34,067 nucleotides of DNA from a bacterium (GCA_021811685.1 JAJZNT010000014.1:1-34067), one strand, 5' to 3'. Positions 4,937-34,067 are shown, counted from the stretch's first letter. Numbers and translations are program-made. Notes: a model not told the origin generated them from the sequence alone.

Positions 4937-6163
4937 TCATTCCCAGCGGAATACCCGGAAAGCGATGGCGTATATAATAACCATCCACACGCCCATAACC
5001 GCTAGTTGAGGGCCAAGATCAAGCAGGCTTTTGCCTTGGGTTAGAATCATGCGGGCGCCGTCAATTACCGGAGTAAGCGGCATATAGTTAGTAACACTCT
5101 GCAGCCACTGAGGCATTAGATAGCGCGGGAAAAACACTCCGGTTAAGAACATCATCGGAAAGACTATGATGTTCCCGAGCGGCGCAACTTGGCGTTCGTT
5201 TTTAGCCCAACCGCCGAGCGCCAGACCGATACCTAGGATTAAGACGATGCCTATAGCTAAGAAGGCAGTCAGGGTTATGTAATCTCCTACTACCTTCAGG
5301 TTATAGATACCTACGGCTACAGCGATCATGGCCGCAAGCGACATTAGCCCGGTTATTGCTTGGCCTATCATGTTGGACAAGAAGAACTGCCAAACTCTTA
5401 AAGGTGTTGTGTGTAGTCGGCGTAGTATCCCCATTTTCTTAAGTTCCGGAAAAACATTCATTGGTCCGAAGATTCCCGAGCCTAGAACGGCAAAGCCAAG
5501 CAGACCAGTGAAAGTGTAATCAAAAGCGGTCAAGCTGTATTTATTGGTAACTTTGCTGACTACTTTAAGCGGTTTTTCGACTTTGACAAAACGATTGGTA
5601 ATCGAGTCGAATTGCGATTGCATGATTGAAGACAATGCTTGAGCTTCCTGAGCATTACTTTGACTGTAGTTAATGACAGCGTCTCCGCTTGGAATACCGT
5701 TGCTGTTTAGTTTTCCAAAGCCTGGGGGCAGCTCAATTATGACGTCTATTTCGCCTCGGCTCATACTTTGATTGGCTTCAGAGATAGTAGTTGCGCTTTT
5801 GGATATGTTAAAGGTCTTATCATTTTTGAGGCTATTCTGATACTCATTAGCTAGCGCCGTATGGGATTCATTGATTAAGGCAACCCGGTAAGATACATGG
5901 CCGCTGTGAGATAAACTGCCAAAAACAAACAGAAAGATCAGCGGAAACAGGAAGGTAAAGAATAAAGCCACCCTATCTCTAAATACTCGCTTTAGATTGA
6001 CTACAAAAAAGACCCAAACAGTGTATAGCTTAAGGGCCCAGGGCGGCAGATTAAGCTTGGTATCATTAGGATCCGTCTGGCGGTTATTTAGGGTGCGCTT
6101 AATGATAACCCGGATAATCCGGAATACGATTAGAGCGGCAATTATAAAGACTAGATACTTCAT
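4937..6163 (-). CDS. ABC-2 type transporter permease
   Basis: 408 aa; N-terminal TM, extracellular loop, ABC2_membrane pattern (RDRVALFFTFLFPLIFLFVFGS; GIFGPMNVFPELKKMGILRRLHTTPL). Confidence 0.9.
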   Translation of the reverse strand: MKYLVFIIAALIVFRIIRVIIKRTLNNRQTDPNDTKLNLPPWALKLYTVWVFFVVNLKRVFRDRVALFFTFLFPLIFLFVFGSLSHSGHVSYRVALINESHTALANEYQNSLKNDKTFNISKSATTISEANQSMSRGEIDVIIELPPGFGKLNSNGIPSGDAVINYSQSNAQEAQALSSIMQSQFDSITNRFVKVEKPLKVVSKVTNKYSLTAFDYTFTGLLGFAVLGSGIFGPMNVFPELKKMGILRRLHTTPLRVWQFFLSNMIGQAITGLMSLAAMIAVAVGIYNLKVVGDYITLTAFLAIGIVLILGIGLALGGWAKNERQVAPLGNIIVFPMMFLTGVFFPRYLMPQWLQSVTNYMPLTPVIDGARMILTQGKSLLDLGPQLAVMGVWMVIIYAIAFRVFRWE

Positions 6164-6927
6164 TAACTGTCTCTCCCTAATTCTTTTCCGGTTAAATCAA
6201 TAAAGACATCCTCGAGATTTGCTTTTTCAATCTCTTGTTTTTTAGTAAAACCACGCTTTAGCAGGGCTTTAATTAGAGCTTTGGGAGTATCCAAAGCAAT
6301 AATTTTGCCGTTGTCCATAATGGCTATCCGGTCGCATAGCATTTGAGCCTCTTCCATGTAGTGGGTAGTTAAAATGACGCTGATGCCGCGCTTCTTTAAT
6401 TCCTCGATCAGTTCCCATAAATTACGTCTGGCTTGAGGGTCAAGTCCGGTTGTCGGTTCGTCCAGGAAAAAGACTTTAGGGTTATGTACCAGGGCGGTGA
6501 CAATTGAAAAGCGTTGTTTTTGACCTCCGGAAAGCTGCTCAACGTAGGAGTTAGCCTTATCTCCCAGGTTTACTTCTTCTAGAAATTGTTTAGGGTTAAC
6601 CTTCTCGCCGTAAGCTGCGGCAAACATTTGGATAATCTCGGTTAACTTTGTCCGGTCCTGAAAACCTGGAGTTTGCGGCTGCACCCCGATTACCCCTCGG
6701 ATCTCGTATGGACTTGAGGCGACATCGATACCGTTAATACTGGCGCTGCCGCTGTCTATACTGCGCAAGGTCTCAAGCATCTCAAGTGTAGTGGTTTTCC
6801 CTGCTCCGTTTGGACCCAATATGCCGAATATCTCGCCTTTTTTAACTTCGAAACTTATATTATCTACGGCTTTTACTTCACCGTAAGATTTTGACAGCTT
6901 CTTAACTTTTAAAATTGCTTCTGGCAT
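6163..6927 (-). CDS. ABC transporter ATP-binding protein
   Basis: Walker A GPNGAGKTT, signature LSGGQKQR, Walker B VFFLDEPTTGLD, H-loop TTHYMEEA. Confidence 0.97.
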   Translation of the reverse strand: MPEAILKVKKLSKSYGEVKAVDNISFEVKKGEIFGILGPNGAGKTTTLEMLETLRSIDSGSASINGIDVASSPYEIRGVIGVQPQTPGFQDRTKLTEIIQMFAAAYGEKVNPKQFLEEVNLGDKANSYVEQLSGGQKQRFSIVTALVHNPKVFFLDEPTTGLDPQARRNLWELIEELKKRGISVILTTHYMEEAQMLCDRIAIMDNGKIIALDTPKALIKALLKRGFTKKQEIEKANLEDVFIDLTGKELGRDS

Positions 6928-7036
6928 TTCTTGTAAGCTATTAATTTTATTCCAAAATCATTCTTAGCTACTTCATGATAGCAACCGCTAACACTTAAGC
7001 CAAGGCCGGCACTACTTAAGTATTAGATTAATCCTG

Positions 7037-7831
7037 CTAAATTTTGGATACCGGGACTCTTTCAATAGCCTCTTTAGCTCCGGGCATTTGTTCTATGTTT
7101 TGCTTGGCTTTATAAACACCAAGAATGTAGCGGAATAATAACTTTTTATAACCTGGAAGTATATGCGGAGATGCATATCCTCCTTTCAGCATTTCAAGGC
7201 CCGAAATAATAGCTGTCATCTCTTCATCTGCCTCATCCCCCAGAGCAGAATAAGCGGTCATTTTTTGCTCGTCATTCGCTTCTTCTAGTGCTCTATACGT
7301 TGCAACGAGCTCAATTCCATTTAGCACCATAGCTGCTTCACCTACTGGCTTTAGCCGATAAATGTCTGGATGAAGTACCGCTTCTCGGTTGTAAAAATAG
7401 CGCCTGCCTCCGACGAAAGGAACCGGTAGTGCCGGAGGGGTTTTCATTTTTAGTTGGCACTCTAACGGCTTAAGCTTATCAGGAGTTCTTTGCTTTGCCG
7501 ATGTATTGTCAGCTGTTAATACCCAACCCGCCAGCTGGTTACTTGAGTCAAAAATACCGGTAAAACGCGGCCGTTTATAAAGCTGGTTGGGGTTAAATTC
7601 CCTCACAAGACTTGGGTCTATGCGACCGTCGCGGTAAGACTCAAAGTCTCCCCACTTGACTATAATATCGGCCCTCTCCTGCCCGTCTTTTGGTAAAAGT
7701 GCACGTATGGATTCACGGTGGATCCCGTGAGCGGCTGTCCAAACCTCGTCCGGAACTTCAGCAGTATCCCAGATTACCAGCTTGTATCCTTCGGTATGAT
7801 TAAAGTCAAAACGAGGACCGGTTTCAGACAT
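7037..7831 (-). CDS. uncharacterised protein (264 aa)
   Basis: Long ORF without overlap; soluble composition. No family recognised with confidence. Confidence 0.65.
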   Translation of the reverse strand: MSETGPRFDFNHTEGYKLVIWDTAEVPDEVWTAAHGIHRESIRALLPKDGQERADIIVKWGDFESYRDGRIDPSLVREFNPNQLYKRPRFTGIFDSSNQLAGWVLTADNTSAKQRTPDKLKPLECQLKMKTPPALPVPFVGGRRYFYNREAVLHPDIYRLKPVGEAAMVLNGIELVATYRALEEANDEQKMTAYSALGDEADEEMTAIISGLEMLKGGYASPHILPGYKKLLFRYILGVYKAKQNIEQMPGAKEAIERVPVSKI

Positions 7832-7902
7832 AAAACTTCCTATAATTAAGTGTATTCTACAATAATTAACAAGTAATTACAAGTATCTTGCGCTGAATTA
7901 AT

Positions 7903-8583
7903 TTAGGATGCCTCATTTGTTCTGACGTAGTAAGGTGCCACTCCTAGCTTATTGGCTTCGACAAATAATGTGTGCATAATTTGCGGTTCGGAGAAAGACT
8001 CTGGAACTTCGGGTCGTGATCTAAGATAATTTCCCAACGCTATATTGGCGTCAAAGCAAGTGCCCTTAAACACTTTAACCTTAACTTCATCTGAATCAAC
8101 TACAGCAGGAATATAGCCTTCGGGGAGCAGCGAAACTATTTGGTCGTCGGGCGCAGTTCTTGTTAAGTCCGGCTTTCCTACTAAGTGTAGAAGTTTACCG
8201 CTTCCGCAATCCACGTAGGTGCCGCTAACATTTACGGAGCTTCCTCTAAGTCTAAATAGTCCGTATTTATATAGCTGGAATTCTTCAATATTAAAAGAGT
8301 AAGGCAACTGCTCTGTCTCTGCCGCCCTATATAGCCTTTGCTTACCCTTTTTACTAAGTCCTGTCGCCGAGTGTTTTAGCTTATCTATTTCTTTGCAGAG
8401 CTTGGCGTTTATTTCCAGTCGGGAGTATTCATGATGTATGGCTCGGTGAAGTGCCAGGTAAGGTAGCTGACTCCAACGGTCTGCCTGGCTGAGCACATAC
8501 TGTCTAATTTCGTCGGCGTTAACCGGGCTATTGGTAGTGGGTGTCGAGAGAGCTTCGAACCCGGGCTTTGTTTCTACAGACAT
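7903..8583 (-). CDS. uncharacterised protein (226 aa)
   Basis: Long ORF without overlap, same orientation and compositional style as the 264-aa neighbour. Confidence 0.65.
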   Translation of the reverse strand: MSVETKPGFEALSTPTTNSPVNADEIRQYVLSQADRWSQLPYLALHRAIHHEYSRLEINAKLCKEIDKLKHSATGLSKKGKQRLYRAAETEQLPYSFNIEEFQLYKYGLFRLRGSSVNVSGTYVDCGSGKLLHLVGKPDLTRTAPDDQIVSLLPEGYIPAVVDSDEVKVKVFKGTCFDANIALGNYLRSRPEVPESFSEPQIMHTLFVEANKLGVAPYYVRTNEAS

Positions 8584-8714
8584 AAGTAATCCTTTTAAAT
8601 CAATCTTAAAACGTGTTTAAGGTAGCCCGCCCTAAATTAGGATTAATGCGATTAGCTTTATAAATCCTAATATACTAACCAATTATTCATATTCAAGCAT
8701 GCTGGTTAAGATAT

Positions 8715-8751
8715 GGCAACAAAATCCTAAGTGGTAATATTTTGTCTTGCC
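8715..8751. promoter_or_regulatory. inverted repeat / hairpin upstream of MMPL gene
   Basis: GGCA-ACAAAAT ... ATTTTGT-ct-TGCC: perfect 7-bp core arms (8719-8725 / 8739-8745), extended by GGCA/TGCC after a 2-nt bulge. Confidence 0.4.
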
Positions 8752-8840
8752 CTCGTAACCGCTGAACTGTAGACTGAATTATAAATATGACAAAAACTTA
8801 TCTTATGATGCGCTTATTCAACCTGTTAGGGGATATCTAA

Positions 8841-11162
8841 GTGCCCTTAAAAGCTAAGCAAGAAAACAATACCCCAGATGAGGAACACCGAGGATTTAGA
8901 TTGTTTAAGGCGATCGGTAGCTTTTCGGTACGTTTTCGCTGGCTGGTGTTGATTTTTTGGATTGCTGGCGCTTTTCTCTCGGTTCATTTCTTGCCTTCTC
9001 TGTCCAGCGTCACCCTGTCTAACAACGCCAAGTTCTTGCCGGCCAGTGCGCCTAGTGAAAAAGCTAATACACTGGCATCCGTTTTTGGTATAAATAACAC
9101 TGAACCAATTCCGATTATTGTGGCTAGAAATAACGGCCAGTTAAGCGCTTCAGACCAGCAGGTCATAACTAAGATCGATAATGCCCTATCTGGCAGTAGT
9201 TATGTTCAGAGGGTGGAGGATAGGGGGCGCTCCCCTGACGGACAGGCCGATGAGCTAGTGGTACTGGCTAAAGATCAAGTCAGCGCCAGTCCGGATGCAT
9301 TAATCAGTTCGCTGAGAGCTGCCATTACTAAGGTGGTTTTGCCTGCGGGGCTTCAAGTGCATCTGGCTGGAGATATTGCAACTTCGGTAGATAACAGTAA
9401 GAGCTCAAATAGCTCCAATAGTCAGATTGAAATATTCTCGGCAATATTTATTATCGTGTTATTGGTTCTGATTTTCAGGGCGCCACTGGCTCCTTTAATT
9501 ACCCTGCTTCCGCCGCTTTTAGTAGTAACCATTGCCGGGCCATTAATTGCCGAAGCCAGTAAAGCAGGACTAAAAGTCTCGGCGATTGCTCAGCTATTGC
9601 TAACAGTCCTAGTAATTGGTGCGGGAACAGATTACGGTCTGTTCTTGATCTTTAGAACTAAGGAAGAACTGCGTGGCGGTTTAAGTGGCCGAGAAGCGGT
9701 AGTTAAGGCGCTTAGCCGGGTCGGAGAATCAATAACTTTTTCCGCAGCTACGGTCATCGCAGCACTGCTGTCATTACTGCTTGCCACCTTTGAAATATAT
9801 TCCGATCTAGCAGTACCTCTGGCTATAGGTATTGGGTTGATGTTGCTTGCCGGAACTACTCTACTGCCGGCTTTAGTGGCCATTTTCGGCCGGGCGGTCT
9901 TTTGGCCGGGCAATGTCAAAGCTGGTACTAAAAAGTCGGGCCTTTGGGGCAGCATTGCCTCCAGGGTAGTTCAGCATCCGTGGCCGACTTTAATAGCGGG
10001 GGTGATAGTTTTTGGCGGTCTGGCAATAGCTATTAATGGATATAAGTCAGGAGGATTTGCCGGTAATGTTACGGCTCCTGCCGGCTCCGACTCTGCAGCC
10101 GGCAATGCACTCTTAGCGGCCCATTTTCCTAAAACTTCAGCTAATCCTACGGCTCTGCTCTACGTTCTTAAGGAACCAGTTTGGCAGGACCCCTCTCCCG
10201 TTATTGCCGCTCAGCATATGCTTGAGCATGAGTCGGAGTTTACCAAGGTTAACGGTCTACTCAATCCTAATGGCTTCAGCTTAAGCGAGGCCGAGCTAGT
10301 TACCCTATACCACAAGCTTGGTCCGCCCAGTAACCGTATGCCTATTACGCCCGGACCGGGAGTTAAGGTTCCTGCCCGCATTTATGAAGCCTATCGTTCA
10401 CTTGCTAATTTTATAGGTCCGGACGGTAAAACTATTGAGTTTGTTGTAGGACTAAGTGCGGGTAATCCGCGTGGTACAGCTGCGCTTCAGGCGGTACCGA
10501 GTATTCGTAATCAGGCAGGCCAGGTAGCCAGGGCTATTGGCGCGGTTAGCTACGGCGTTGCGGGCCCCGCACCGACTCTTTACGACATCAGCAACATTTC
10601 CAGTAATGATTTAAAGCGGGTTATTCCGGTTGCTATTGTGGTTATCGGGTTGTTGCTCGCCGTCTTAATGCGCAGTCTGGTTGCTCCTCTGTACCTAATT
10701 GCTTCAGTAGCTATATCCTATCTTGCGGCACTCGGTTTAGTAACCCTGGTGTTTTTAGATATAGGCCATGGTAGCGGCATTGTCTTTTTACTGCCGTTTT
10801 TGATGTTTATTTTCCTGCTGGCTCTCGGAGAAGACTATAACATCTTAGTTATGACCCGGATTAGAGAAGAGGCTCATGGCCTACCGCTCAAAAAAGCCGT
10901 GGCCCGGGCGCTCACAACTACCGGAACAACAGTTACTTCGGCCGGGTTGGTTTTAGCCGGAACCTTCGCAATTTTAGCAATTGTAGGCGGGCGTTCCGGC
11001 GGCAGCGAGATAGTGGATATCGGCTGGGGTCTAGCTCTAGGTATCTTAATGGACACTTTCTTGGTCAGGACACTGCTGGTACCGTCAGTGGTTGTATTGC
11101 TTGACCGCTGGAACTGGTGGCCAAGCAAACACGGCAGCTGGGTGAATGAGGACAAGGACTAG
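8841..11162 (+). CDS. MMPL/RND family transporter
   Basis: 773 aa, GTG start after TTAGGGGATATC; duplicated multi-TM architecture with GAGTDYGLFLIFR and LGEDYNILVMTRIREE, typical of MMPL. Confidence 0.95.
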   Translation: MPLKAKQENNTPDEEHRGFRLFKAIGSFSVRFRWLVLIFWIAGAFLSVHFLPSLSSVTLSNNAKFLPASAPSEKANTLASVFGINNTEPIPIIVARNNGQLSASDQQVITKIDNALSGSSYVQRVEDRGRSPDGQADELVVLAKDQVSASPDALISSLRAAITKVVLPAGLQVHLAGDIATSVDNSKSSNSSNSQIEIFSAIFIIVLLVLIFRAPLAPLITLLPPLLVVTIAGPLIAEASKAGLKVSAIAQLLLTVLVIGAGTDYGLFLIFRTKEELRGGLSGREAVVKALSRVGESITFSAATVIAALLSLLLATFEIYSDLAVPLAIGIGLMLLAGTTLLPALVAIFGRAVFWPGNVKAGTKKSGLWGSIASRVVQHPWPTLIAGVIVFGGLAIAINGYKSGGFAGNVTAPAGSDSAAGNALLAAHFPKTSANPTALLYVLKEPVWQDPSPVIAAQHMLEHESEFTKVNGLLNPNGFSLSEAELVTLYHKLGPPSNRMPITPGPGVKVPARIYEAYRSLANFIGPDGKTIEFVVGLSAGNPRGTAALQAVPSIRNQAGQVARAIGAVSYGVAGPAPTLYDISNISSNDLKRVIPVAIVVIGLLLAVLMRSLVAPLYLIASVAISYLAALGLVTLVFLDIGHGSGIVFLLPFLMFIFLLALGEDYNILVMTRIREEAHGLPLKKAVARALTTTGTTVTSAGLVLAGTFAILAIVGGRSGGSEIVDIGWGLALGILMDTFLVRTLLVPSVVVLLDRWNWWPSKHGSWVNEDKD

Positions 11163-17356: not shown

Positions 17357-17471
17357 TTTTATTGAAGAAAAAAATCTTAATAAATTAGTTTGCTAATATA
17401 CAAAATAGTTATTAAAATAACCTAGATTAAGTTAATATTAAGTGTTTAAGCACAAGGGACGAGGGCAGTTA

Positions 17472-19745
17472 ATGACAACTAAGGACCATAAGAGTTTACA
17501 CAAAAGTCGGCAATGGGGTGCCGAAAAACGTTTAGATCCGTTGCCAATGATGCATGCAGTGCCTTCTACGGCTAAGATAAGCTTTAGTCGGATTGCTATA
17601 GTACTGACAGTTTTGCTCTGGTTTACTTATTTTATCTATACGGTAATTCGCCAGTTCTTTGAAGGCCCAGCTACCTTCAGCTTCCTACTTCAGTCAATCA
17701 TTTATCTCTCGATTGTTACGTTCTTAACCCTTTCCTCCCTGCTATATCTGATAACCCGACAAGGAGCGTTTCAGCGTTTCAAGAAGCATACAAGGGTACC
17801 GCGGGCGGAAATTGACCGCTTTTTCGATAAAAAACATCCCTCAATCACAGTTCTTATTCCCTCTTATGATGAAGAGCCTGAGGTAATCAGGAAAACGCTT
17901 ATTTCTGCGGTTCTCCAGGAATATCCATCACTTAGAGCGGTGCTGCTACTAGATAATAATCCTAATCCTAGCAATCCTGATCAGCAACTAAAGCTTAATA
18001 AAAGCCGCAAGTTAATTGAAGATATAGACGAACTGTTTAAAGAGCCCAGGGAGCTACTGGCAAAAGCTTTTAGGGAATTTGAGCGTAAAAAAACTAAGAG
18101 AGCTTATGCCAGCCTTGAGCAGATTAGGGCTTTAAGTGGTCATTACGCCTGGGCTGCCAGCTGGCTGAACAACTTAGCTGATGAAGAGACAATAGAGGAT
18201 CACGTAGACCTATTCTTTGCTAACCAGGTACTGAGAGAACTGTCTAAAGATTTAAACTTGGTAAGTCAAGCTCTGCAAACTTCAGCCCTAGAAAACGCCA
18301 AGCTTTCCAAGACCAGAATTAAACAGCTTTATATGCGCCTGAACTGGATTTTTGACTTTGATATAGACGTATTCGAGCGAAAAGGTTTTGCCTCTTTGTC
18401 TCATGAGTCCAATAAGGCGATGAACCTTAACTCATATATTGGATTAATGGGCGGCGCTTATCGGCAGCTGCCCTCTCCTGACGGGCCGGTGTTAATCCGC
18501 AGCCGGAAGGTTGAGGCTAATGATCTGGTAATTCCGGACAGCGATTTTGTTTTAACCTTAGATGCTGATTCGATTCTCTTAAGGGAATACTGTTTAAGGC
18601 TGGTTTATTTCCTTGAGCAGCCGGACAATGCCAAGGTAGCTGTGACTCAAACCCCCTACTCGTCATTTAGGGGAGCATCAACCCGCATTGAGCGCTTAGC
18701 CAGCGCCACTACTGACGTGCAGCATATTCTGCACCAGGGAATGAGTTATTATGGGGCAACCTTCTGGGTTGGCGCTAATGCTATTATCCGCAAGAAAGCG
18801 CTTGAAGATATTTGCGAGAGTGAGTGGATTGGCGGTTATGAAATAAAGAGATATATCCAGGACCGTACGGTTATTGAAGATACAGAATCCAGTATCGATT
18901 TGACGCTGCATGGTTGGAGCTTGGTTAACTATCCCGAACGCCTGAGTTATAGCGCTACTCCTCCTGACTTCGGGTCGCTAATTGTACAGCGTCGGCGCTG
19001 GGCAAACGGCGGATTACTAATTTTGCCTAAGCTTTGGTCGCATAGCCGTACTCGTAAGCGCAATAACCAACCGGTACTAATGCCCGAGCTAATGCTCAGG
19101 GTTAATTATATGGGCTCGATCGCCTGGGCCAGCTTGGGGCTGGTCTTGCTGCTGGCCTATCCGTATAACGGACGTCTGCTTTCCCCGTTCGTTATTCTGG
19201 CCGCTTTGCCCTACTTCATAGCCATGGCAAGCGATCTTAAGTACTGCGGCTATAAGCGCAGCGATGTACTAAGGGTTTACGGGTTTAACTTAATGCTGCT
19301 TCCGGTTAATATTGCCGGAGTTGCCAAATCTATTCAGCAGGCCCTGACCGGTAAGAAGATTCCTTTTGCGCGCACTCCTAAAGTTAAAAACCGGACCTTA
19401 ACTCCCGCACTGTATATTATTGCGCCGCTACTTATTATTGTTTTTTCCTTATTTACGCTATATAGGGATGAGCTGTCGCATAACTTAGGCAATGCTATCT
19501 TTGCCGGAGTTAATGCCCTCTTAACGCTTTGGGCGGTAACTGCGTTTATTGGGATTAAAAACTCGATTGTTGATTTATGGCGGGCATTTACTAATTGGCT
19601 GTATATTGAGGTGCCCGTAAAGCTTGAACAAAAAGACTTGGCCGCACAGGCGATTGACTGGAAATCTGTTTTATACCACGGTAATAACGATGACAGCACC
19701 AAGCGGAAATATGTCCCTGAAGACGAACTCTATGGAAAAGTCTAG
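17472..19745 (+). CDS. large processive GT2 glycosyltransferase (cellulose/beta-glucan synthase-like)
   Basis: PSYDEEPEVI, DADSILL, QRRRW (QxxRW) and several C-terminal TM helices. ORF track start is 17442; the ATG at 17472 is a likely alternative. Confidence 0.92.
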   Translation: MTTKDHKSLHKSRQWGAEKRLDPLPMMHAVPSTAKISFSRIAIVLTVLLWFTYFIYTVIRQFFEGPATFSFLLQSIIYLSIVTFLTLSSLLYLITRQGAFQRFKKHTRVPRAEIDRFFDKKHPSITVLIPSYDEEPEVIRKTLISAVLQEYPSLRAVLLLDNNPNPSNPDQQLKLNKSRKLIEDIDELFKEPRELLAKAFREFERKKTKRAYASLEQIRALSGHYAWAASWLNNLADEETIEDHVDLFFANQVLRELSKDLNLVSQALQTSALENAKLSKTRIKQLYMRLNWIFDFDIDVFERKGFASLSHESNKAMNLNSYIGLMGGAYRQLPSPDGPVLIRSRKVEANDLVIPDSDFVLTLDADSILLREYCLRLVYFLEQPDNAKVAVTQTPYSSFRGASTRIERLASATTDVQHILHQGMSYYGATFWVGANAIIRKKALEDICESEWIGGYEIKRYIQDRTVIEDTESSIDLTLHGWSLVNYPERLSYSATPPDFGSLIVQRRRWANGGLLILPKLWSHSRTRKRNNQPVLMPELMLRVNYMGSIAWASLGLVLLLAYPYNGRLLSPFVILAALPYFIAMASDLKYCGYKRSDVLRVYGFNLMLLPVNIAGVAKSIQQALTGKKIPFARTPKVKNRTLTPALYIIAPLLIIVFSLFTLYRDELSHNLGNAIFAGVNALLTLWAVTAFIGIKNSIVDLWRAFTNWLYIEVPVKLEQKDLAAQAIDWKSVLYHGNNDDSTKRKYVPEDELYGKV

Positions 19746-21306
19746 TTATACAACTGTCAGAAAATTGTCTCTGCTCAGGCTGCTACTGGTAGTACTAATC
19801 TTTGCCTTAATCGGTGGCGGGGTTGCTTATGCAATTCGTCAATGGAATATTAACCGAGTTATAGGGCCGCACAACCCCTGGTTTGCTTCTTACGTAGACG
19901 TTACCGCTACCCCTCTCTACCCCTTTGAGAATTTAGGTACCAGTGCTCATAAAGACGTAGTCCTGTCCTTTATTGTTTCTCTACCGTCTAAACCTTGTAC
20001 CCCTTCTTGGGGTGGTGCCTATACTATGAACCAGGCTTCAGCCTCGCTTGATCTTGATAGACGGATCGCCCGGCTGCAACAACAGGGGGGTAGCATAGCT
20101 ATCTCCTTCGGGGGAAAACTGAACCAGGAGCTGGCAAATAAGTGTACTAACCAGCAGTCATTGCTTAGCGCCTACCAGAGCGTAATTGATCGATATAAGG
20201 TAGATACGATCGACCTGGATATGGAGGGACCTACGCTTGGCAATTCGGCTGCTATGGTACGCCGTGCGGAAACTATAGCGAAGCTTCAGAACGAACGGCG
20301 AGATCACGGGGAAAAACTTGCTGTCTGGCTGACCTTACCCGTCACTCCCCAGGGCCTAAGTGAAGCCGGCACTAATGCGGTGGCTACTATGCTGGCAAAA
20401 GGAGTTGATTTGGCAGGGGTTAATATCATGACCATGGACTACGGCCAAAGCCTGGCCCCGGGACAAAACATGTTAAGCGGCTCAGAAAGCGCCGCAACTC
20501 AGACGGTGCGCCAGCTGGGTATTCTCTACCGCCGGGCCGGAATTTATCTGAATAACGGGACTCTCTGGTCGAAGCTGGGTCTTACTCCCATGATTGGTCA
20601 GAATGATAACGCCTATGAAGTGTTTACCACCTCGGACGCCAAATCCTTAAATGCATTTGCTGTTTCTAATCAAGTCGGGCGAATGTCGATGTGGTCAGCC
20701 AATCGGGATATAACCTGCGGCAGTAACTACGTCACTTTAAGTATTGTTTCTACTTCCTGTAGCGGTGTTAATGAGGGTCAGCCCGGTACGTTTGCCGAAC
20801 TTTTGGGCAAAGGCTTTACCGGAAGGATTGAGCTTAGTGCCGGCCTGATTACTAAAGCTGATACTAAGTCCAGCTATTTAAGCTCACCGGACAATCCGGC
20901 AACCAGCCCCTACCCCATATGGTCAGATAATTCCGCATATTTGGAGGGTACAAAGGTGGTGTGGCACCATAACGTTTACCAGGCTAAATGGTGGACTCAA
21001 GGTGATGTTCCCGACAATCCGGTGCTGCAAAGCTGGCAGACTCCATGGGAGCTGATTGGTCCGGTACTTCCCGGAGAGAAACCGATTCCTCAGGCAACTC
21101 TACCTGCGGGAACCTACCCTGACTGGTCAGGTACGACTATTTATAATACCGGGAACCGCGTGCTGTTTAACGGCGTGCCTTACCAGGCGAAGTGGTGGAA
21201 CCAGGGGCAGAGTCCGGCCGCAGCATCGTCCAACCCCGGAGGGTCTCCTTGGACTCCCCTGACCCAGGCGCAAATTAACGCTATCGAGAATCAGAGTAAA
21301 AGCTAA
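19732..21306 (+). CDS. GH18-like glycoside hydrolase (chitinase-like) with N-terminal TM anchor and two C-terminal CBM5/12-like modules
   Basis: DTIDLDME matches the GH18 DxxDxDxE motif. Repeats YPIWSDNSAYLEGTKVVWHHNVYQAKWWTQGDVP and YPDWSGTTIYNTGNRVLFNGVPYQAKWWNQGQSP are CBM5/12-like. Start at MEKSSY overlaps the GT2 stop by 14 nt. Confidence 0.9.
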   Translation: MEKSSYTTVRKLSLLRLLLVVLIFALIGGGVAYAIRQWNINRVIGPHNPWFASYVDVTATPLYPFENLGTSAHKDVVLSFIVSLPSKPCTPSWGGAYTMNQASASLDLDRRIARLQQQGGSIAISFGGKLNQELANKCTNQQSLLSAYQSVIDRYKVDTIDLDMEGPTLGNSAAMVRRAETIAKLQNERRDHGEKLAVWLTLPVTPQGLSEAGTNAVATMLAKGVDLAGVNIMTMDYGQSLAPGQNMLSGSESAATQTVRQLGILYRRAGIYLNNGTLWSKLGLTPMIGQNDNAYEVFTTSDAKSLNAFAVSNQVGRMSMWSANRDITCGSNYVTLSIVSTSCSGVNEGQPGTFAELLGKGFTGRIELSAGLITKADTKSSYLSSPDNPATSPYPIWSDNSAYLEGTKVVWHHNVYQAKWWTQGDVPDNPVLQSWQTPWELIGPVLPGEKPIPQATLPAGTYPDWSGTTIYNTGNRVLFNGVPYQAKWWNQGQSPAAASSNPGGSPWTPLTQAQINAIENQSKS

Positions 21307-27429: not shown

Positions 27430-28620
27430 ATGGAAGAAAATCAAAAAGATAAAGGTATAGATCAAAGTACAAACATTAATCAGGACTCGCCTACTGTTCC
27501 CGTTAATCCTCCGGAAGTCTCAGCCGAGAAGGATCCGGTAAATAATAGTTCCTCACCTAAACAGCCTAAGGTGCCGAAGTGGCTGTTAATTTCCGGTTTG
27601 GCGGCAGTGTTAATTGCTGTTGGGGTACTTATTTTCTTTTTAGTAGATAACACCAGTAACAGTAATACGGTTAGCTATGTGACCAATAATAAGCCGGCCT
27701 CCACTCCGCCATCCACTAAAGCTAATAGCTATAACACTCCGGCATCGATTAACCCGATAAATCCGGCGGCAATACCGCTAGGCACCGGCAAGGTATCCAC
27801 AACTCCCCGGGTTGGTTATGTTGATTTTTGTAACAATAAGGGTACGAGTGTTGCTCCCGAGCCTAACCTGCCCTGGATTAATAAGACTAATAATACCTGG
27901 GACTCGTTAACTAAGCCGGCGGTACAGGGATCGGTTTCTTGGGCGGGCTCAGCCAGTTATTCGGTTACCTTGTCCGGAAGCACCAGAACCATAACAACTA
28001 ATGATTTACCGATAAACCATGACAGCGGAGTCTTCCCGATAAGCGTGAATGATCCGGCTTACCAATATGATCATAACCCGAATAAGATAACCTCTCAGCC
28101 AACGACCTGGCAGCTGTCGGCTAATCCGATTGCAGCTGCCACCCCAGGCTGTACCAGTGACGGGCCGATCGGCGTATTAACCGACGGGGTTTTCCTATTT
28201 AATGCACTTGACGCGGATAACCGGGATGCTGGTGCTACCGAGATTCTTGATCAGTGGCAAGGACACCCGCAGAGTGCAGGTATGTACCACCACCACGATA
28301 TTCCTAACTTTATGCTGAAAGCCGATTCAGCTAAATCCTCTTCTACTCTAGTTGGCTACGCACTAGACGGCTACGGCATTTATGTTGAGCGGGACGCTAA
28401 CGGGAACTTACTGACTAATGCCAACTTGGACGCTTGCCATGGACGCACAAGTGAGGTTATGTGGAATGGCAAGATGACTGACATTTACCACTACGACGCT
28501 ACACTTGAATACCCCTATACTGTAGGCTGTTTCCACGGTACGCCGATTACCATAAATAAGACTGCGCCTCATGGAGCGGGCGGCAATCCTACTGGAAACA
28601 AGCTACCGCCTAAGACCTAA
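27430..28620 (+). CDS. YHYH domain-containing protein, membrane anchored
   Basis: TM KWLLISGLAAVLIAVGVLIFFLV; GMYHHHDIPNF, GYALDGYGIYVE, DIYHYDATLEYPYTVGCFHGTP. Confidence 0.9.
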   Translation: MEENQKDKGIDQSTNINQDSPTVPVNPPEVSAEKDPVNNSSSPKQPKVPKWLLISGLAAVLIAVGVLIFFLVDNTSNSNTVSYVTNNKPASTPPSTKANSYNTPASINPINPAAIPLGTGKVSTTPRVGYVDFCNNKGTSVAPEPNLPWINKTNNTWDSLTKPAVQGSVSWAGSASYSVTLSGSTRTITTNDLPINHDSGVFPISVNDPAYQYDHNPNKITSQPTTWQLSANPIAAATPGCTSDGPIGVLTDGVFLFNALDADNRDAGATEILDQWQGHPQSAGMYHHHDIPNFMLKADSAKSSSTLVGYALDGYGIYVERDANGNLLTNANLDACHGRTSEVMWNGKMTDIYHYDATLEYPYTVGCFHGTPITINKTAPHGAGGNPTGNKLPPKT

Positions 28621-28790
28621 AGTTTAGAGTTCTGCCTCCCAGTCCGTAATTGTATTAAATATGTAAGTTGAAGTATTAACAAAACTATTGAATAGTACAT
28701 TGTTGTGTAGTAGTATTTGTTTAGACAAAGGCTGGGCTATGTGTCTTAAAATAGGCGTTTGTTCATGTGGGGACAGATAACTATCCAGTT

Positions 28791-31238
28791 ATGATTAAGA
28801 AAATTTTTAGTTTAATTGCCGCCGCTTTATTAAGTACTTTTGCTCTATTGCCTTTTAGTATTAACGCGGCTGCCAGCAGTACTAATCTGATTGCCAACCC
28901 TTCGGTTGAAACTCCCAGTCCGGCAAATTCAAGCCTTCCCCAATACTGGCAAGAAGGCCACTGGGGCACTAACTCTGAAAGCTTCAACTATCTAAATACC
29001 GGGTATAACAGCAATCATTCAGTTCAAGTTAATATGACCAGTTATAGCTCGGGGGATGCCAAGTGGTACTTTAATCCGGTGAGTGTAGCTTCGGGTTCGG
29101 AGTATACCTTTAGCGATTATTATACGAGCAATGTCACTACTGATGTTGTTGTCCAATACGGGCTGAGCAGCGGCGGTTATAGTTATGTGGATTTAGGATC
29201 AGTTGGCCCAAGCAGCAACTGGCAGACATTTAGCTCAACGTTTACTACACCCTCTGGAATAAACAACTTAACAATCTTTCACCTGATTAACAGCGTCGGC
29301 AGCTTAACTACCGATAATTTTTCTTTAATTTCCGGAGCGCCTCAACTACCGCCTCCTTCAGTTGGTAGTAACTTAATTTATAATCCCTCAGTAGAAATAT
29401 CCAGCGGCAATTTGCCCGCCGGCTGGCAAGAAGGCCACTGGGGCACTAACTCTGAAAGCTTCAACTATCTAGATACCGGGTATAACAGCAATCATTCAGT
29501 TCAAGTTAATATGACCAGTTATAGCTCGGGGGATGCCAAGTGGTACTTTAATCCGGTAAGTGTTCTGCCTAATACTAATTATATCTTCAGTGATTATTAT
29601 GAATCTAACGTAGCAAGCGACGTAGTTGTGCAGTTTGAGGACAGCAGCGGCAACTATGGCTACTTAGATCTGGGTAATGCTCCAGCCAGTAGCAGCTGGA
29701 ATAACTATAGCGCAACCTTCACTACTCCGGCTAATACGGCTTCGCTGACAGTTTTTCACCTGATTAACCGCGTCGGCAGTTTAACTACGGATAACTACAG
29801 CTTAAGTGTATCTACGGCACCGAGTGTAAGTATCACTTCCCCGTCAGCAGGGTCAAATATTAGCGGGCAGGTCGCCCTTTCGGCAACCGCGTCGGCTAGT
29901 GATGGAGTTGCGTCTGTTCAGTTTAAGCTGGACGGTGTTAACCTCGGCCTGCCGCTCAGTTCCTCTCCATACTCTATGAACTGGAACTCGGCAGACACTA
30001 CGAACGGCACACACACCCTGGTAGCTGTTGCTATCGGGAAAGACGGCTCAGTTTCCAGCTCTGCCCCGGTTATTATTAATGTCAGCAACCCTGATCCGCT
30101 CGGCGGCAACTTAATCCCGAACCCGTCGATTAATACACCTGATCCAAATAATTCAAGCTTGCCTCTTGATTGGGTGCATTCATCTTGGGGTACTAACTCC
30201 GAGACTTTCCATTATCTAAGCAGTGGCTATAACGATAGTCACAGCGTTCAGGTCAATATGACCAGTTATAGTTCAGGCGATGCCAAGTGGTACTTTACGC
30301 CTCAACTAGTGTCACAAGATACACAGTACAAATACAGCGAGTATTACAAGAGTAATGTTCAGACTCAGATAATGGGAGTGTTTAACATGAGCGATGGCTC
30401 AACCCAGTATTTGTTTATCGGGCTGCCTGACAGCTCAAGCGCCTGGACGCATTTCTCGACCGAGTTTTCTATCCCTCTCGGGACTGTTAATATGACTATC
30501 TACCATCTAATTAACAGCGTCGGCAGCTTAACTACCGATGATTTTTCACTGACACCCTATAGCCCCACCGGCTTCAGCCGCCCATTGTTAAGTCTGACCT
30601 TTGATGACGGCTATTCAAGTACCTTTAATAACGGTTTGCCCTTGCTGCAGCAATACGGCTATAGCTCTACCCAGTACATTATCACCGATTTAATTAATGC
30701 GAATAGCTACTACATGAGTAATGCTCAGGTACTGAAGATGTATCAGGCGGGCCAGGAAATAGCCTCACATACCATTACTCATTCAAATCTAACCAGTGAA
30801 TCGACCTCTGCTGTTACTAATGAGCTGTCAAACTCAAAGATTCAGCTGCAAAAATGGATCGGCGCGCCCGTGAGCGATATGGCCTACCCTTATGGTCTTT
30901 ATGACAATACGGTTATGAGTTTGGCCGCCAATTACTATGCCTCTGCCCGAGGAGTTGAAGACGGGCTAAATTCCAAGGATAACCTAAACGTATACGACCT
31001 CAAGGTCCAGAACGTTTTCAGCTTTACCACCACCGCTCAGATCGCCGACTGGGTAAAGCAAGCAGAAGCAACCAATACCTGGCTAATTTTGGTATATCAC
31101 TCAGTCGATCCAAGCCCGGTAGACATCTATAACGTGACGCCAACTCAGCTGGCTAACCAGTTAGCGGCGATTAAAGCTAGCGGTATTACCGTAGAGAATA
31201 TACATTCAGCCCTAAGCGAAGTCGAAGCTCAATTATAG
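28791..31238 (+). CDS. secreted polysaccharide deacetylase (NodB/CE4-like) with three CBM-like repeat modules and an Ig-like domain
   Basis: Signal peptide MIKKIFSLIAAALLSTFALLPFSINAAA. Modules start near 28887, 29373 and 30111; Ig-like region about 29823-30090. C-terminal NodB domain has LTFDDGYSST and SHTITH motifs. Confidence 0.92.
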   Translation: MIKKIFSLIAAALLSTFALLPFSINAAASSTNLIANPSVETPSPANSSLPQYWQEGHWGTNSESFNYLNTGYNSNHSVQVNMTSYSSGDAKWYFNPVSVASGSEYTFSDYYTSNVTTDVVVQYGLSSGGYSYVDLGSVGPSSNWQTFSSTFTTPSGINNLTIFHLINSVGSLTTDNFSLISGAPQLPPPSVGSNLIYNPSVEISSGNLPAGWQEGHWGTNSESFNYLDTGYNSNHSVQVNMTSYSSGDAKWYFNPVSVLPNTNYIFSDYYESNVASDVVVQFEDSSGNYGYLDLGNAPASSSWNNYSATFTTPANTASLTVFHLINRVGSLTTDNYSLSVSTAPSVSITSPSAGSNISGQVALSATASASDGVASVQFKLDGVNLGLPLSSSPYSMNWNSADTTNGTHTLVAVAIGKDGSVSSSAPVIINVSNPDPLGGNLIPNPSINTPDPNNSSLPLDWVHSSWGTNSETFHYLSSGYNDSHSVQVNMTSYSSGDAKWYFTPQLVSQDTQYKYSEYYKSNVQTQIMGVFNMSDGSTQYLFIGLPDSSSAWTHFSTEFSIPLGTVNMTIYHLINSVGSLTTDDFSLTPYSPTGFSRPLLSLTFDDGYSSTFNNGLPLLQQYGYSSTQYIITDLINANSYYMSNAQVLKMYQAGQEIASHTITHSNLTSESTSAVTNELSNSKIQLQKWIGAPVSDMAYPYGLYDNTVMSLAANYYASARGVEDGLNSKDNLNVYDLKVQNVFSFTTTAQIADWVKQAEATNTWLILVYHSVDPSPVDIYNVTPTQLANQLAAIKASGITVENIHSALSEVEAQL
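28946..29080 (+). repeat. intragenic direct repeat copy 1 (135 bp, 134/135 identical to 29423-29557)
   Basis: ctggcaagaaggccactgg...aatccggt; only difference seen is TAAATACC versus TAGATACC; offset 477 bp (159 codons). Confidence 0.9.
29423..29557 (+). repeat. intragenic direct repeat copy 2
   Basis: See copy 1; flanking module sequence is markedly more diverged. Confidence 0.9.
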
Positions 31239-31341
31239 CCAAATACAACCAGGACTAAGAAAAAGGTAATGTTTTACTATAAACTTTACTAACAAGCATT
31301 AATAGTGTAGAATAATACTAAAATAGAAAAGTTATTAAGGA

Positions 31342-31387
31342 GGGCCCCAATGCTCTATTGAGCGGCATTGGTGCCCTTTAGCTTTTT
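31342..31387 (+). terminator. terminator/attenuator-like hairpin upstream of GT2
   Basis: GGGCCCCAATGC (31342-31353) pairs with GCATTGGTGCCC (31365-31376) at 11 of 12 positions, followed by TTTAGCTTTTT. Confidence 0.6.
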
Positions 31388-31414
31388 AAACAGATTATTG
31401 AGAGTAGATATTTT

Positions 31415-32560
31415 ATGAGCAAAGCTAATATTAAGCCCAAATCAACTAGAGGAAAAAAGTCATTGCGGCAGAAAAAGCAGCCGCGGGTTGTGGCTTTGGT
31501 TCCGGCACATAACGAGGCTAAGACAATTGCGAGGACTATCGAGTCTTTAATGAACCAAACTTACAATCTGTCTTATGCCCTGATAATCATAGATAACTGC
31601 TCAGATATGACTTTAAGGGTTGTTCACAACTGCCAAAAGCAATACGGTAAGAAAAAATTAAGGGTAATGAAGACGGTAAATAACCGGTATAAAAAAGCCG
31701 GGGCGCTAAATCAGGGGTTCAAGGCGGTTACTCGAAAGCCCGATTTTATCTTTTGTATGGACGCCGATACTGTTCTTGACCCTGGGATTATTAAGGCGGG
31801 AGTTAGCCAATTGATCAACGAGCCGACTACGGGCGGTATCTGCTCGGCTTACCGCACGCTGCCGCTACCGCAGGGAGCTTCTAAATGGGAGCGGTATTTG
31901 TGGCGGCTGCAGAATATTGAATTCAGCCTGGCTAACGCCTGGAGAGTTGAGAATTATAACAATGCCAGGGTGCTTCCGGGAGTATCGGTTATTTTCCGCA
32001 GTACGGCCTTAAGCGCCATATCCCGGCAAAATGACGGAATTGTCTGGGCAACAGACAGTCTGGTTGAAGACTATAGGCTGACACTTGAGTTAAAAGATCT
32101 GGGTTGGAGTGTTAAGTCTTCCCTAGAGATGGTTTCCTGGTCGGATGTACCGTTAAGGATACGCGGTAAGGGCGGCCTGTTTGACCAGCGCCAAAGATGG
32201 TACAGCGGTACGGTTGATGAAATACGCCGCCGGGGTTTTAAGAAGCATTCACGTTACGAAGCTTTAACCATCGGTCTTTTAAGCCTTAACCTGCTCATGA
32301 GAGGCTTGTTATACTCCGTCTATATTGTTCTTGCCTTAAGCGGCAATCTGGCTCAGTTAGTATCGTTGTTCTTACTCTTGCCCTTATCCGCCGCCTTAAT
32401 TCAATACTATAGATGGAACAAGTACGCTGACCAGAAGGATAAATGGCAGGCCTTAATGACCATCAGCTTAATCCCGAATGAACTTTATGCAATTTTTAGG
32501 GAAATGGTCTACACCTACTCGGTTTGGGTGAGTTATGCTCGTCCGGAAAGGGCCTGGTAA
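31415..32560 (+). CDS. processive GT2 glycosyltransferase (chitin/PNAG/hyaluronan synthase-like)
   Basis: ALVPAHNEAKTIARTIESLMNQ, DADTVLD, EDYRL, QRQRW (QxxRW) and C-terminal TM helices. Confidence 0.92.
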   Translation: MSKANIKPKSTRGKKSLRQKKQPRVVALVPAHNEAKTIARTIESLMNQTYNLSYALIIIDNCSDMTLRVVHNCQKQYGKKKLRVMKTVNNRYKKAGALNQGFKAVTRKPDFIFCMDADTVLDPGIIKAGVSQLINEPTTGGICSAYRTLPLPQGASKWERYLWRLQNIEFSLANAWRVENYNNARVLPGVSVIFRSTALSAISRQNDGIVWATDSLVEDYRLTLELKDLGWSVKSSLEMVSWSDVPLRIRGKGGLFDQRQRWYSGTVDEIRRRGFKKHSRYEALTIGLLSLNLLMRGLLYSVYIVLALSGNLAQLVSLFLLLPLSAALIQYYRWNKYADQKDKWQALMTISLIPNELYAIFREMVYTYSVWVSYARPERAW

Positions 32561-32566
32561 CTTAAG

Positions 32567-32878
32567 ATGCATATTCTTCAGCCATCGCCTACTTCAGCCA
32601 TTTTGCCCGTAGGAGGCGTAGATGCCGGCTTGCATCATTTCATAGGGGTCAGCTGGGATATTCTAATCCCCTACACTATCGTTGGCGCTGCTTTGATGGT
32701 CTACTCGCATGTCCGCTTAATCCAAGGACAAAAAGTCATGCTAACTCCTAATGAAGCACGATCTGCCAAAAAACCTAAACCCAGACTCAAAGCTTCTTTA
32801 AATAAATGGACAAAGTCGGTGCTCGTGATTAGCCGTCCCTATAGCGACAAGATATTCGCGCTAGGCAACAAACGCTAA
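32567..32878 (+). CDS. small single-TM membrane protein
   Basis: 103 aa, starts 6 nt after the GT2 stop; TM ILIPYTIVGAALMVYSHVRLI, basic C-terminus. Confidence 0.65.
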   Translation: MHILQPSPTSAILPVGGVDAGLHHFIGVSWDILIPYTIVGAALMVYSHVRLIQGQKVMLTPNEARSAKKPKPRLKASLNKWTKSVLVISRPYSDKIFALGNKR

Positions 32879-32907: not shown

Positions 32908-34067
32908 TTAACGAGGCTTGTTGGCAATATACGGGTAGTAGTAAATTGATTTAATCTGCAGGCTGGCCGGCAGCGCTGCATTATTAATCCCGTTATTGGG
33001 GTACTGAGCCGTATCTTCACCGCCCCATACACCACCAACTGCCAGGTCGATAATTAGATAAAAGGGCTGATTAAATGGCCAGGTTAGGTAGGTCGCTCCT
33101 GGTTGTTTGTAATAGGTGTAGTAAGGCTTGTTGTTTACTTCAAAAGTAATACTGTCAGGGGTCCAAAGCAGAGTATAGGTGTTGTAGTTTAGATTATTAT
33201 TGGCTACTAGGACCTGATTATAATCACCTACGCCGTTAGGATTGTTCTCGTTTGATGTGACGGTGTGGACTACTCCGTAAACAAGATTGGGGTTGAAACC
33301 GACCGCTTCAGCCATGTCAATCTCTCCGCCGTTTAAAAAGCGGTAAATATCGCTAGGAGGACTCATGTCTTCATATTTGGTATTTGCCGGTAGTAACCAG
33401 ATTGCCGGCCAGGTACCGACTCCAATCGGCAGTTTGGCGGTTACGTCAATTCTCCCGTAGCGGAAGGATAGCTTGCCTTTGGTGTCAACCCGGCCTGATC
33501 CGTACTGATAGTTATTTGGTTCTGCCTGATGAGTTGCCTCTAAGATCAATGAACCCTGGCTGATCCGAAGATTTGACGGGTCATTGGTGTAGTACTCGGC
33601 TTCGTTATTGCCGTTATTCGGCGCGCCGATGTTAATTCGCCAGTAGTTAGAATTTAGCTTATTGCTCTTATAGTGGGCGAAGTCTTGCGACCAGGTAGGA
33701 TAGGTTGAGAATTGATTATCTGATTGGGCCGGACCGTAAGTTGTAATCCTACTTGGGGCTTCTTGTGTCTGGTCTTGTTTGCCGATCAGGATAGTGCTGG
33801 GGCCATAGCCGGAAGCGTTGCCGTTATTTAGGGTTAATACGTAGGCTAGCGCGGCAATAGCTAAAATACCAATGGTAATCAAACGGACTTGTGCTCGTAT
33901 TACCCTTTTTGTCTTAGTAAAAGCAGTTACCCGAAAACGCTTTAGTGCCGCTAGCTTGCCCTTCGCTTTAGTCTGACGCGCTCGTATTGGTTTAGCGGTA
34001 GTCTTTTTAACTGATTTTACGCTAACTTTAGATCGAGAATTTGCGGCTTTAGTTGACTTTTTAGCTG
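32908..34067 (-). CDS. GH16 family glycoside hydrolase (beta-glucanase-like), membrane anchored, N-terminus truncated by window edge
   Basis: FRYGRIDVTAKLPIGVGTWPAIWLLP and GGEIDMAEAVG (ExDxxE). ORF track start at 33882 is a TTG, but the frame stays open to 34067, encoding AKKSTKAANSRSKVSVKSVKKTTAKPIRARQTKAKGKLAALKRFRVTAFTKTKRVIRAQVR before the TM. Confidence 0.9.
   Translation of the reverse strand, partial: AKKSTKAANSRSKVSVKSVKKTTAKPIRARQTKAKGKLAALKRFRVTAFTKTKRVIRAQVRLITIGILAIAALAYVLTLNNGNASGYGPSTILIGKQDQTQEAPSRITTYGPAQSDNQFSTYPTWSQDFAHYKSNKLNSNYWRINIGAPNNGNNEAEYYTNDPSNLRISQGSLILEATHQAEPNNYQYGSGRVDTKGKLSFRYGRIDVTAKLPIGVGTWPAIWLLPANTKYEDMSPPSDIYRFLNGGEIDMAEAVGFNPNLVYGVVHTVTSNENNPNGVGDYNQVLVANNNLNYNTYTLLWTPDSITFEVNNKPYYTYYKQPGATYLTWPFNQPFYLIIDLAVGGVWGGEDTAQYPNNGINNAALPASLQIKSIYYYPYIANKPR

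Follow-up and report, generated by a model that had tools for sequence, protein, structure and literature searches.

The stretch of DNA considered here, referred to below as the window, comprises 34,067 nucleotides (GCA_021811685.1 JAJZNT010000014.1:1-34067) and is the entire contig C2 of a Saccharimonadales metagenome-assembled genome (MAG) of 614 kb, in 31 contigs and 63% complete. Toward its 3' end lie the genes for a secreted polysaccharide deacetylase of the CE4 (NodB) type, a GT2 glycosyltransferase and a 103-aa membrane protein, followed on the other strand by a GH16 glycoside hydrolase (Table 1). The original prediction, made from the sequence alone, had delimited the first three genes at 28791-32878, coordinates which are exact to the base, and had compared them with the pga/ica cassettes for poly-N-acetylglucosamine (PNAG). 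Its description of a secreted NodB-type deacetylase carrying TFDDG and SHTxxH is borne out by a signal peptide, the Pfam domain Polysacc_deac_1 and the sequence SHTITH; likewise, the small protein does contain a transmembrane helix, a single one, and its gene does start after a gap of 6 nt from the GT2 gene.

Table 1. Coordinates of the features at the glycan locus, counted from the first nucleotide of the window.
Feature	Coordinates	Strand	Description
Secreted CE4 (NodB-type) deacetylase	28791..31238	+	Signal peptide, CBM4_9-like repeats, Big_7 immunoglobulin (Ig) domain, C-terminal catalytic domain
Promoter-like box TTTACT-17-TAGAAT	31285..31313	+	Kept in 4 orthologous loci
Leader hairpin, U-rich 3' side	31332..31388	+	Between promoter-like box and GT2; possible attenuator
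GT2 glycosyltransferase	31415..32560	+	Cytosolic GT-A domain, three C-terminal membrane-type helices, DAD/VED/QRQRW; Saccharimonadales-specific clade
103-aa protein with one transmembrane helix	32567..32878	+	Constant partner of the GT2 clade
GH16, membrane-anchored or secreted	32908..34065	-	EIDMAE (ExDxxE type); transcribed toward the small gene; 5' end at contig end

Orthologues of the GT2 (about 50-78% identity) were found only in the Candidatus Saccharibacteria/Saccharimonadia MAGs G016, G214, G185 and G277, at locus L045 and in the fragment L046, classed only as bacterium; the next matches lie at about 33% identity. In each of the six orthologues for which sequence extends past the GT2 (window, G016, L045, G185, G214, G277), the small gene stands 3' of it, with only its first 23 residues preceding the contig end in G214 and a diverged copy in G277. 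Co-occurrence was assessed in 392 genomes of Saccharimonadales, 5 with a GT2 orthologue and 387 without. A profile of the small protein matched 5/5 of the former and, elsewhere, one marginal frame with a stop; as the copies from the GT2-bearing genomes were in the profile, their own matches are circular, and the informative result is the absence among the 387 others. GH16 is encoded close to the GT2 in the window, G016, L045, G185 and G277, and on another contig in G214; it is present in 5/5 GT2-orthologue genomes vs 17/392 overall (hypergeometric p of 8e-8, or 4e-5 with genera collapsed, both values ignoring shared ancestry). The deacetylase is upstream of the GT2 on the same strand in the window, G016 and G185, divergent in G277, and beyond GH16 and GH6 on the opposite strand in L045, where its frame (6735-8968) is broken into two overlapping open reading frames (ORFs) by sequencing error or decay. 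L045 and G185 additionally encode a GH6 glucanase in the cluster. The prediction of a surface-polysaccharide locus is supported to the extent that GT2, membrane protein, deacetylase and GH16 belong together: the window, G016, G185, L045 and G277 all keep the four-gene set, although gene order and orientation vary, and it recurs in the same genus, in other genera and in another family.

The same type of deacetylase with carbohydrate-binding repeats, together with GH6 and/or GH16, also accompanies a different GT2 clade in G019, G250, G169, G130 and G199, and in G033, G046, G050 and G058 other deacetylases are found beside a sortase and further, different GT2s. Outside the order, GH6 adjoins a related GT2 in an actinobacterial MAG (L048), and in BMS3Abin01 (L062) a GT2 precedes a deacetylase whose tail resembles a carbohydrate-binding repeat by eye, with no Pfam match. 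Since differing GT2 clades share these deacetylase/GH6/GH16 neighborhoods, the gene arrangements indicate that synthase, deacetylase and endo-glycanase form a recurrent set of which the GT2 is the exchangeable part. As a separate observation, sets of sortase, GT2 and polysaccharide deacetylase recur in Saccharimonadales at L030, L035 (sortase recognized by eye), L038, L039 and L040.

The GT2 matches Pfam Glycos_transf_2 (7e-22) and carries the DxD, ED and QxxRW motifs as DAD116, VED217 and QRQRW258. If the locus were a true PNAG cassette, this enzyme would be PgaC/IcaA, the small protein PgaD/IcaD and the deacetylase PgaB/IcaB, a functional set which is identical on paper; in its favor, the NCBIfam model that fits the GT2 best is PgaC_IcaA (TIGR03937). 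Nonetheless, the score is 93.2 bits, far below the curated cut-off of 422.3, and no transmembrane segment precedes the GT domain, where hydropathy gives hydrophobic stretches at 1-31 in IcaA and 1-54 in PgaC. The comparison with PgaC/IcaA by phylogeny had been proposed before the tree was seen. In a maximum-likelihood tree of 42 sequences, the GT2 and five orthologues make up a clade of their own (100/100) on a long stem, and PgaC, IcaA and two ica-like enzymes of Lactobacillaceae make up another (100/97). Constraining the two together costs 58.7 log-likelihood units and is rejected by the approximately unbiased (AU) test (p=0.0003), so that the GT2 falls outside the group with which the original prediction had compared it. 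Orthology to the G019-type GT2, of like neighborhood, is also rejected (p-AU 1e-7); grouping with NodC, whose branch is very long, is borderline (p 0.047), and grouping with a Janibacter sequence (L047) gives p 0.44. On this phylogeny, the GT2 represents a Saccharimonadales-specific clade outside the GlcNAc-synthase clade of PgaC/IcaA, and was placed in no other characterized one.

The deacetylase starts at the ATG at 28791 (MIKKIFSLIAAALLSTFALLPF..., signal peptide) and stops at 31238; an in-frame GTG lies upstream at 28767, giving 823 aa instead of the 815 obtained from the better ATG. Pfam recognizes Polysacc_deac_1 (8.9e-25), Big_7 (4.5e-18) and CBM_4_9 (7.5e-9), the latter as two stretches of repeats, of which three can be seen by eye. 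With its NodB fold, DD, HxxxH and late-His motifs, the protein belongs to CE4, and its sequence retains the metal-binding and catalytic motifs of the family: counted from the GTG, TFDDG is at 611, SHTITH at 667, AYPYG at 706 and LVYH at 777. This is the canonical CE4 order, the YH block being C-terminal to FDDG. In E. coli PgaB, the plasmid-borne staphylococcal IcaB and the enzyme of L. brevis, by contrast, the YH/WH block is N-terminal to FDD (in IcaB, a "VT..Q" stretch is visible after this block, ahead of FDD). The PgaB and IcaB equivalog models, with cut-offs of 321.9 and 248.35 bits, give the deacetylase 29.2 and 32.1 bits; the best NCBIfam model is HfsH, at 78.2 of the 400 bits required.

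The predicted structure of the CE4 domain is of moderate quality (predicted local distance difference test, pLDDT, of 76). In a fold search it retrieves first a xylanase-linked CE4 domain, PdaC and PgdA/chitin deacetylases, that is, acetylxylan, peptidoglycan and chitin deacetylases, ahead of the PgaB-type BpsB (rank 45). The xylanase-linked esterase at the top would suit a locus for degradation of foreign glycans from a host or the environment, with GH16, GH6, GH18 and CE4 scavenging and the GT2 pair a mere neighbor, as would the GH15 and the GH18-like protein with CBM5_12 also encoded in the window. The GT2 and the small protein, however, remain clustered with these enzymes despite changes in order and orientation, and GT2s of other clades are repeatedly found beside them as well, which makes a purely degradative locus quite unlikely.

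No family in Pfam or NCBIfam matches the 103-aa protein, whose reading frame is in phase with that of the GT2. Hydropathy gives one conserved transmembrane helix at about residues 25-46, vs two (13-46 and 52-77) in E. coli PgaD; the charge pattern suggests an N-out orientation, and the C-terminal tail is basic, variable and unalignable with that of the G016 orthologue. Over the first 58 codons, the two genes differ at 11/5/36 sites in positions 1/2/3 (p=1.5e-7); as the differences are mainly in third positions, this part is under selection at the protein level. Judging from this bias and from its recurrence after every GT2 orthologue with downstream sequence, the small gene is real. PgaD and IcaD are non-homologous, yet both are required by their synthases (PMC7112194), so that by analogy a third, unrelated small synthase partner is plausible. 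The idea that the protein is the lost N-terminal helix of the GT2 is attractive, as IcaA has one such helix; we do not argue for it because the G019-type GT2s also lack the helix and no such partner was seen adjoining them. A match to the small protein in G051 was rejected, as it falls within the first transmembrane helix of a protease-like HExxH protein of 292 aa that is otherwise unrelated.

Taken together, the gene layout seen by the original prediction stands, but an assignment to PgaB/IcaB, PgaC/IcaA and PgaD/IcaD is not supported. None of the runnable tests specific to PgaB, PgaC or PgaD/IcaD pointed to membership, and only the generic GT2 motifs agreed; the model score, the tree, the AU test, the motif order of the deacetylase and the number of transmembrane helices led to the rejection of pga/ica orthology, and the caution that architectural likeness demonstrates no orthology was well placed. 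The neighbors, too, are glucanases (GH16 and, in relatives, GH6) instead of a PNAG hydrolase. A true PNAG cassette is hence very unlikely, even though the nearest plasmid-borne relative, from L. brevis, sits in an icaA-D-B-like cassette. Such cassettes of icaA-like GT2 and icaB-like deacetylase were observed on L. brevis pPUL102_4 (L142 3860-6265) and P. damnosus pL21535-3 (L143 1693-5269). The former includes a 117-aa icaD-like ORF (5028-5381; two transmembrane helices by eye) which is not in the PLSDB gene table; neither is the GT2 of P. damnosus, which is adjoined by a GH20.

A single operon is not evident, because a promoter-like box and a hairpin lie in the 176-nt gap between deacetylase and GT2. 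Matches to the promoter-like class are no more frequent than expected (12 found vs 16 in shuffles), and the box is credible for its conservation and not for its match statistics: a 25-nt form, TTTAC..CAT..TAGTGTA, lies 123 to 133 nt upstream of the start of the GT2 in the window, G016, G185 and L046 (in L046 the gene upstream is not the deacetylase), and the strict form has one copy in the 614 kb genome assembly. The hairpin that follows is unusually stable in 4/6 orthologues (z of -3.4 in the window, -2.8 in G185, -2.3 in L045 and -3.6 in G214), its z being not significant in G016 (-1.6) and L046 (-0.1). Stems differ in sequence among the window, L133, L134 and L045, and a GAGC-like loop recurs by eye. 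The leader has no Rfam match, which speaks against a known riboswitch; it may be an attenuator or a new cis-regulatory RNA. Given the conserved box and the leader hairpin after it, the GT2 and the small gene are likely transcribed separately from the deacetylase. Elsewhere, at L133 6930-7033, an S-adenosylmethionine (SAM) riboswitch (48.6 bits, cut-off 44.4) precedes an S-adenosylmethionine synthetase-like ORF.

We favor, with a probability of roughly 55%, a Saccharimonadales-specific, synthase-dependent surface-glycan locus, analogous to pga/ica or csl and a member of neither. On the cytosolic side, the GT2 would bind a nucleotide sugar; together with the one-helix protein, acting as its membrane subunit, it would extend a beta-glycan and extrude it across the membrane. 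The CBM4_9-like repeats would keep the secreted CE4 enzyme on this glycan, from which it would remove some of the acetyl groups, and the membrane-anchored GH16 (GH6 in relatives) would trim or release the chain. The predicted structure of the GT2 (pLDDT 91.2, predicted template modeling score 0.88) comprises a GT-A domain and C-terminal helices at 277-309, 312-337 and 352-375. Foldseek vs the PDB retrieves hyaluronan synthases (HAS) first (E 1e-14, TM-score 0.67), Chlorella virus HAS reaching a TM-score of 0.67-0.69 at best, and these model-based matches would fit a processive synthase, without proving one. Of the "processive GT2" originally proposed, the family holds, while processivity is a reading of the motifs only.

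Several points weigh against this surface-glycan locus. The mannosyltransferase PcManGT comes fourth in the Foldseek list, ahead of chitin and cellulose synthases, and QxxRW is found too in non-processive GT21-type enzymes. In addition, neither the window genome nor G016, both of them incomplete MAGs (63-68%), yielded a GH6, and the partners point to different sugars, as CE4 suggests an acetylated glycan and GH6/GH16 a beta-glucan. The PcManGT match would also suit a non-processive transferase decorating a lipid or wall polymer, with the small protein as a membrane anchor or regulator, as would the matches to the Glyco_transf_21 and HpnI models and the topology, with only three C-terminal membrane-type helices and none at the N-terminus. 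The presence of a secreted deacetylase and of two families of endo-glycanases in the cluster suggests an extracellular polymer instead, and we regard the decorating transferase as unlikely.

Beyond the surface-glycan reading itself, a more specific proposal is tentatively possible: Saccharimonadales may possess a distinct and undescribed system for glycan synthesis and secretion, in which a free one-helix subunit takes the place of PgaD/IcaD and which has a promoter of its own and a structured leader. It would coat the cells or the site of host contact with a partly deacetylated beta-glycan. The suggestion of an undescribed exopolysaccharide locus holds insofar as a conserved surface-glycan locus is concerned; a literature search, from whose reach most subscription papers fell outside, found no described Saccharibacterial PNAG or exopolysaccharide locus. 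To our knowledge, the surface coat and host attachment of the candidate phyla radiation (CPR) and Saccharibacteria are largely open questions, and a compact locus with clear parts offers a defined, testable glycan system in reduced genomes. It also calls for caution, as such GT2/CE4 sets should not be annotated as PNAG.

Elsewhere in the window, at 17442-21306, lies a separate glycan pair of two overlapping genes: one encodes a second GT2 (767 aa), for which the best model is CelA (81 bits of 699 required), and the other a GH18-like protein bearing CBM5/12 repeats. Directly upstream of the deacetylase, a secreted YHYH-domain protein is encoded at 27430-28620; it was not found in the G016 locus.

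Among known systems, pgaABCD/icaADBC share with the locus a membrane GT2, a small transmembrane partner right after it and a NodB-type deacetylase, and hence the same functional logic. They differ in that the GT2 of the locus belongs to another clade and lacks the N-terminal transmembrane helix, its partner has one helix instead of two, the YH block of the deacetylase is C-terminal instead of N-terminal, and a PgaB-type hydrolase domain is lacking, the neighbors being GH16/GH6. The resemblance to Streptomyces csl consists of a Gram-positive-type glycan synthase and a linked secreted glucanase. CslA is a larger cellulose-synthase-like protein, and CslZ is a GH6 enzyme. In cslA-glxA-cslZ, the synthase of a cellulose-like glycan is coupled to the glucanase CslZ, active on cellulose and chitin (PMC11022532). 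The present locus differs in its added deacetylase and GH16 and in a GT2 which is not of the CelA/CslA type, CelA lying outside the 25 best NCBIfam models for it; a linked GH6 was not found in the 63%-complete window genome assembly (G000), but L045 and G185 carry one at the orthologous locus. Coupling of GT2 and CE4 functions at one locus is shared with Streptomyces matAB (PNAG), in which both are fused in MatB, whose GT2 has PgaC as its closest relative (PMC5972031), whereas here the two are separate genes and the GT2 is in another clade. Finally, among solved structures hyaluronan and chitin synthases come closest in fold to the GT2 model, but at 13-17% identity, and they possess N-terminal transmembrane helices and more channel helices than the GT2 of the locus.

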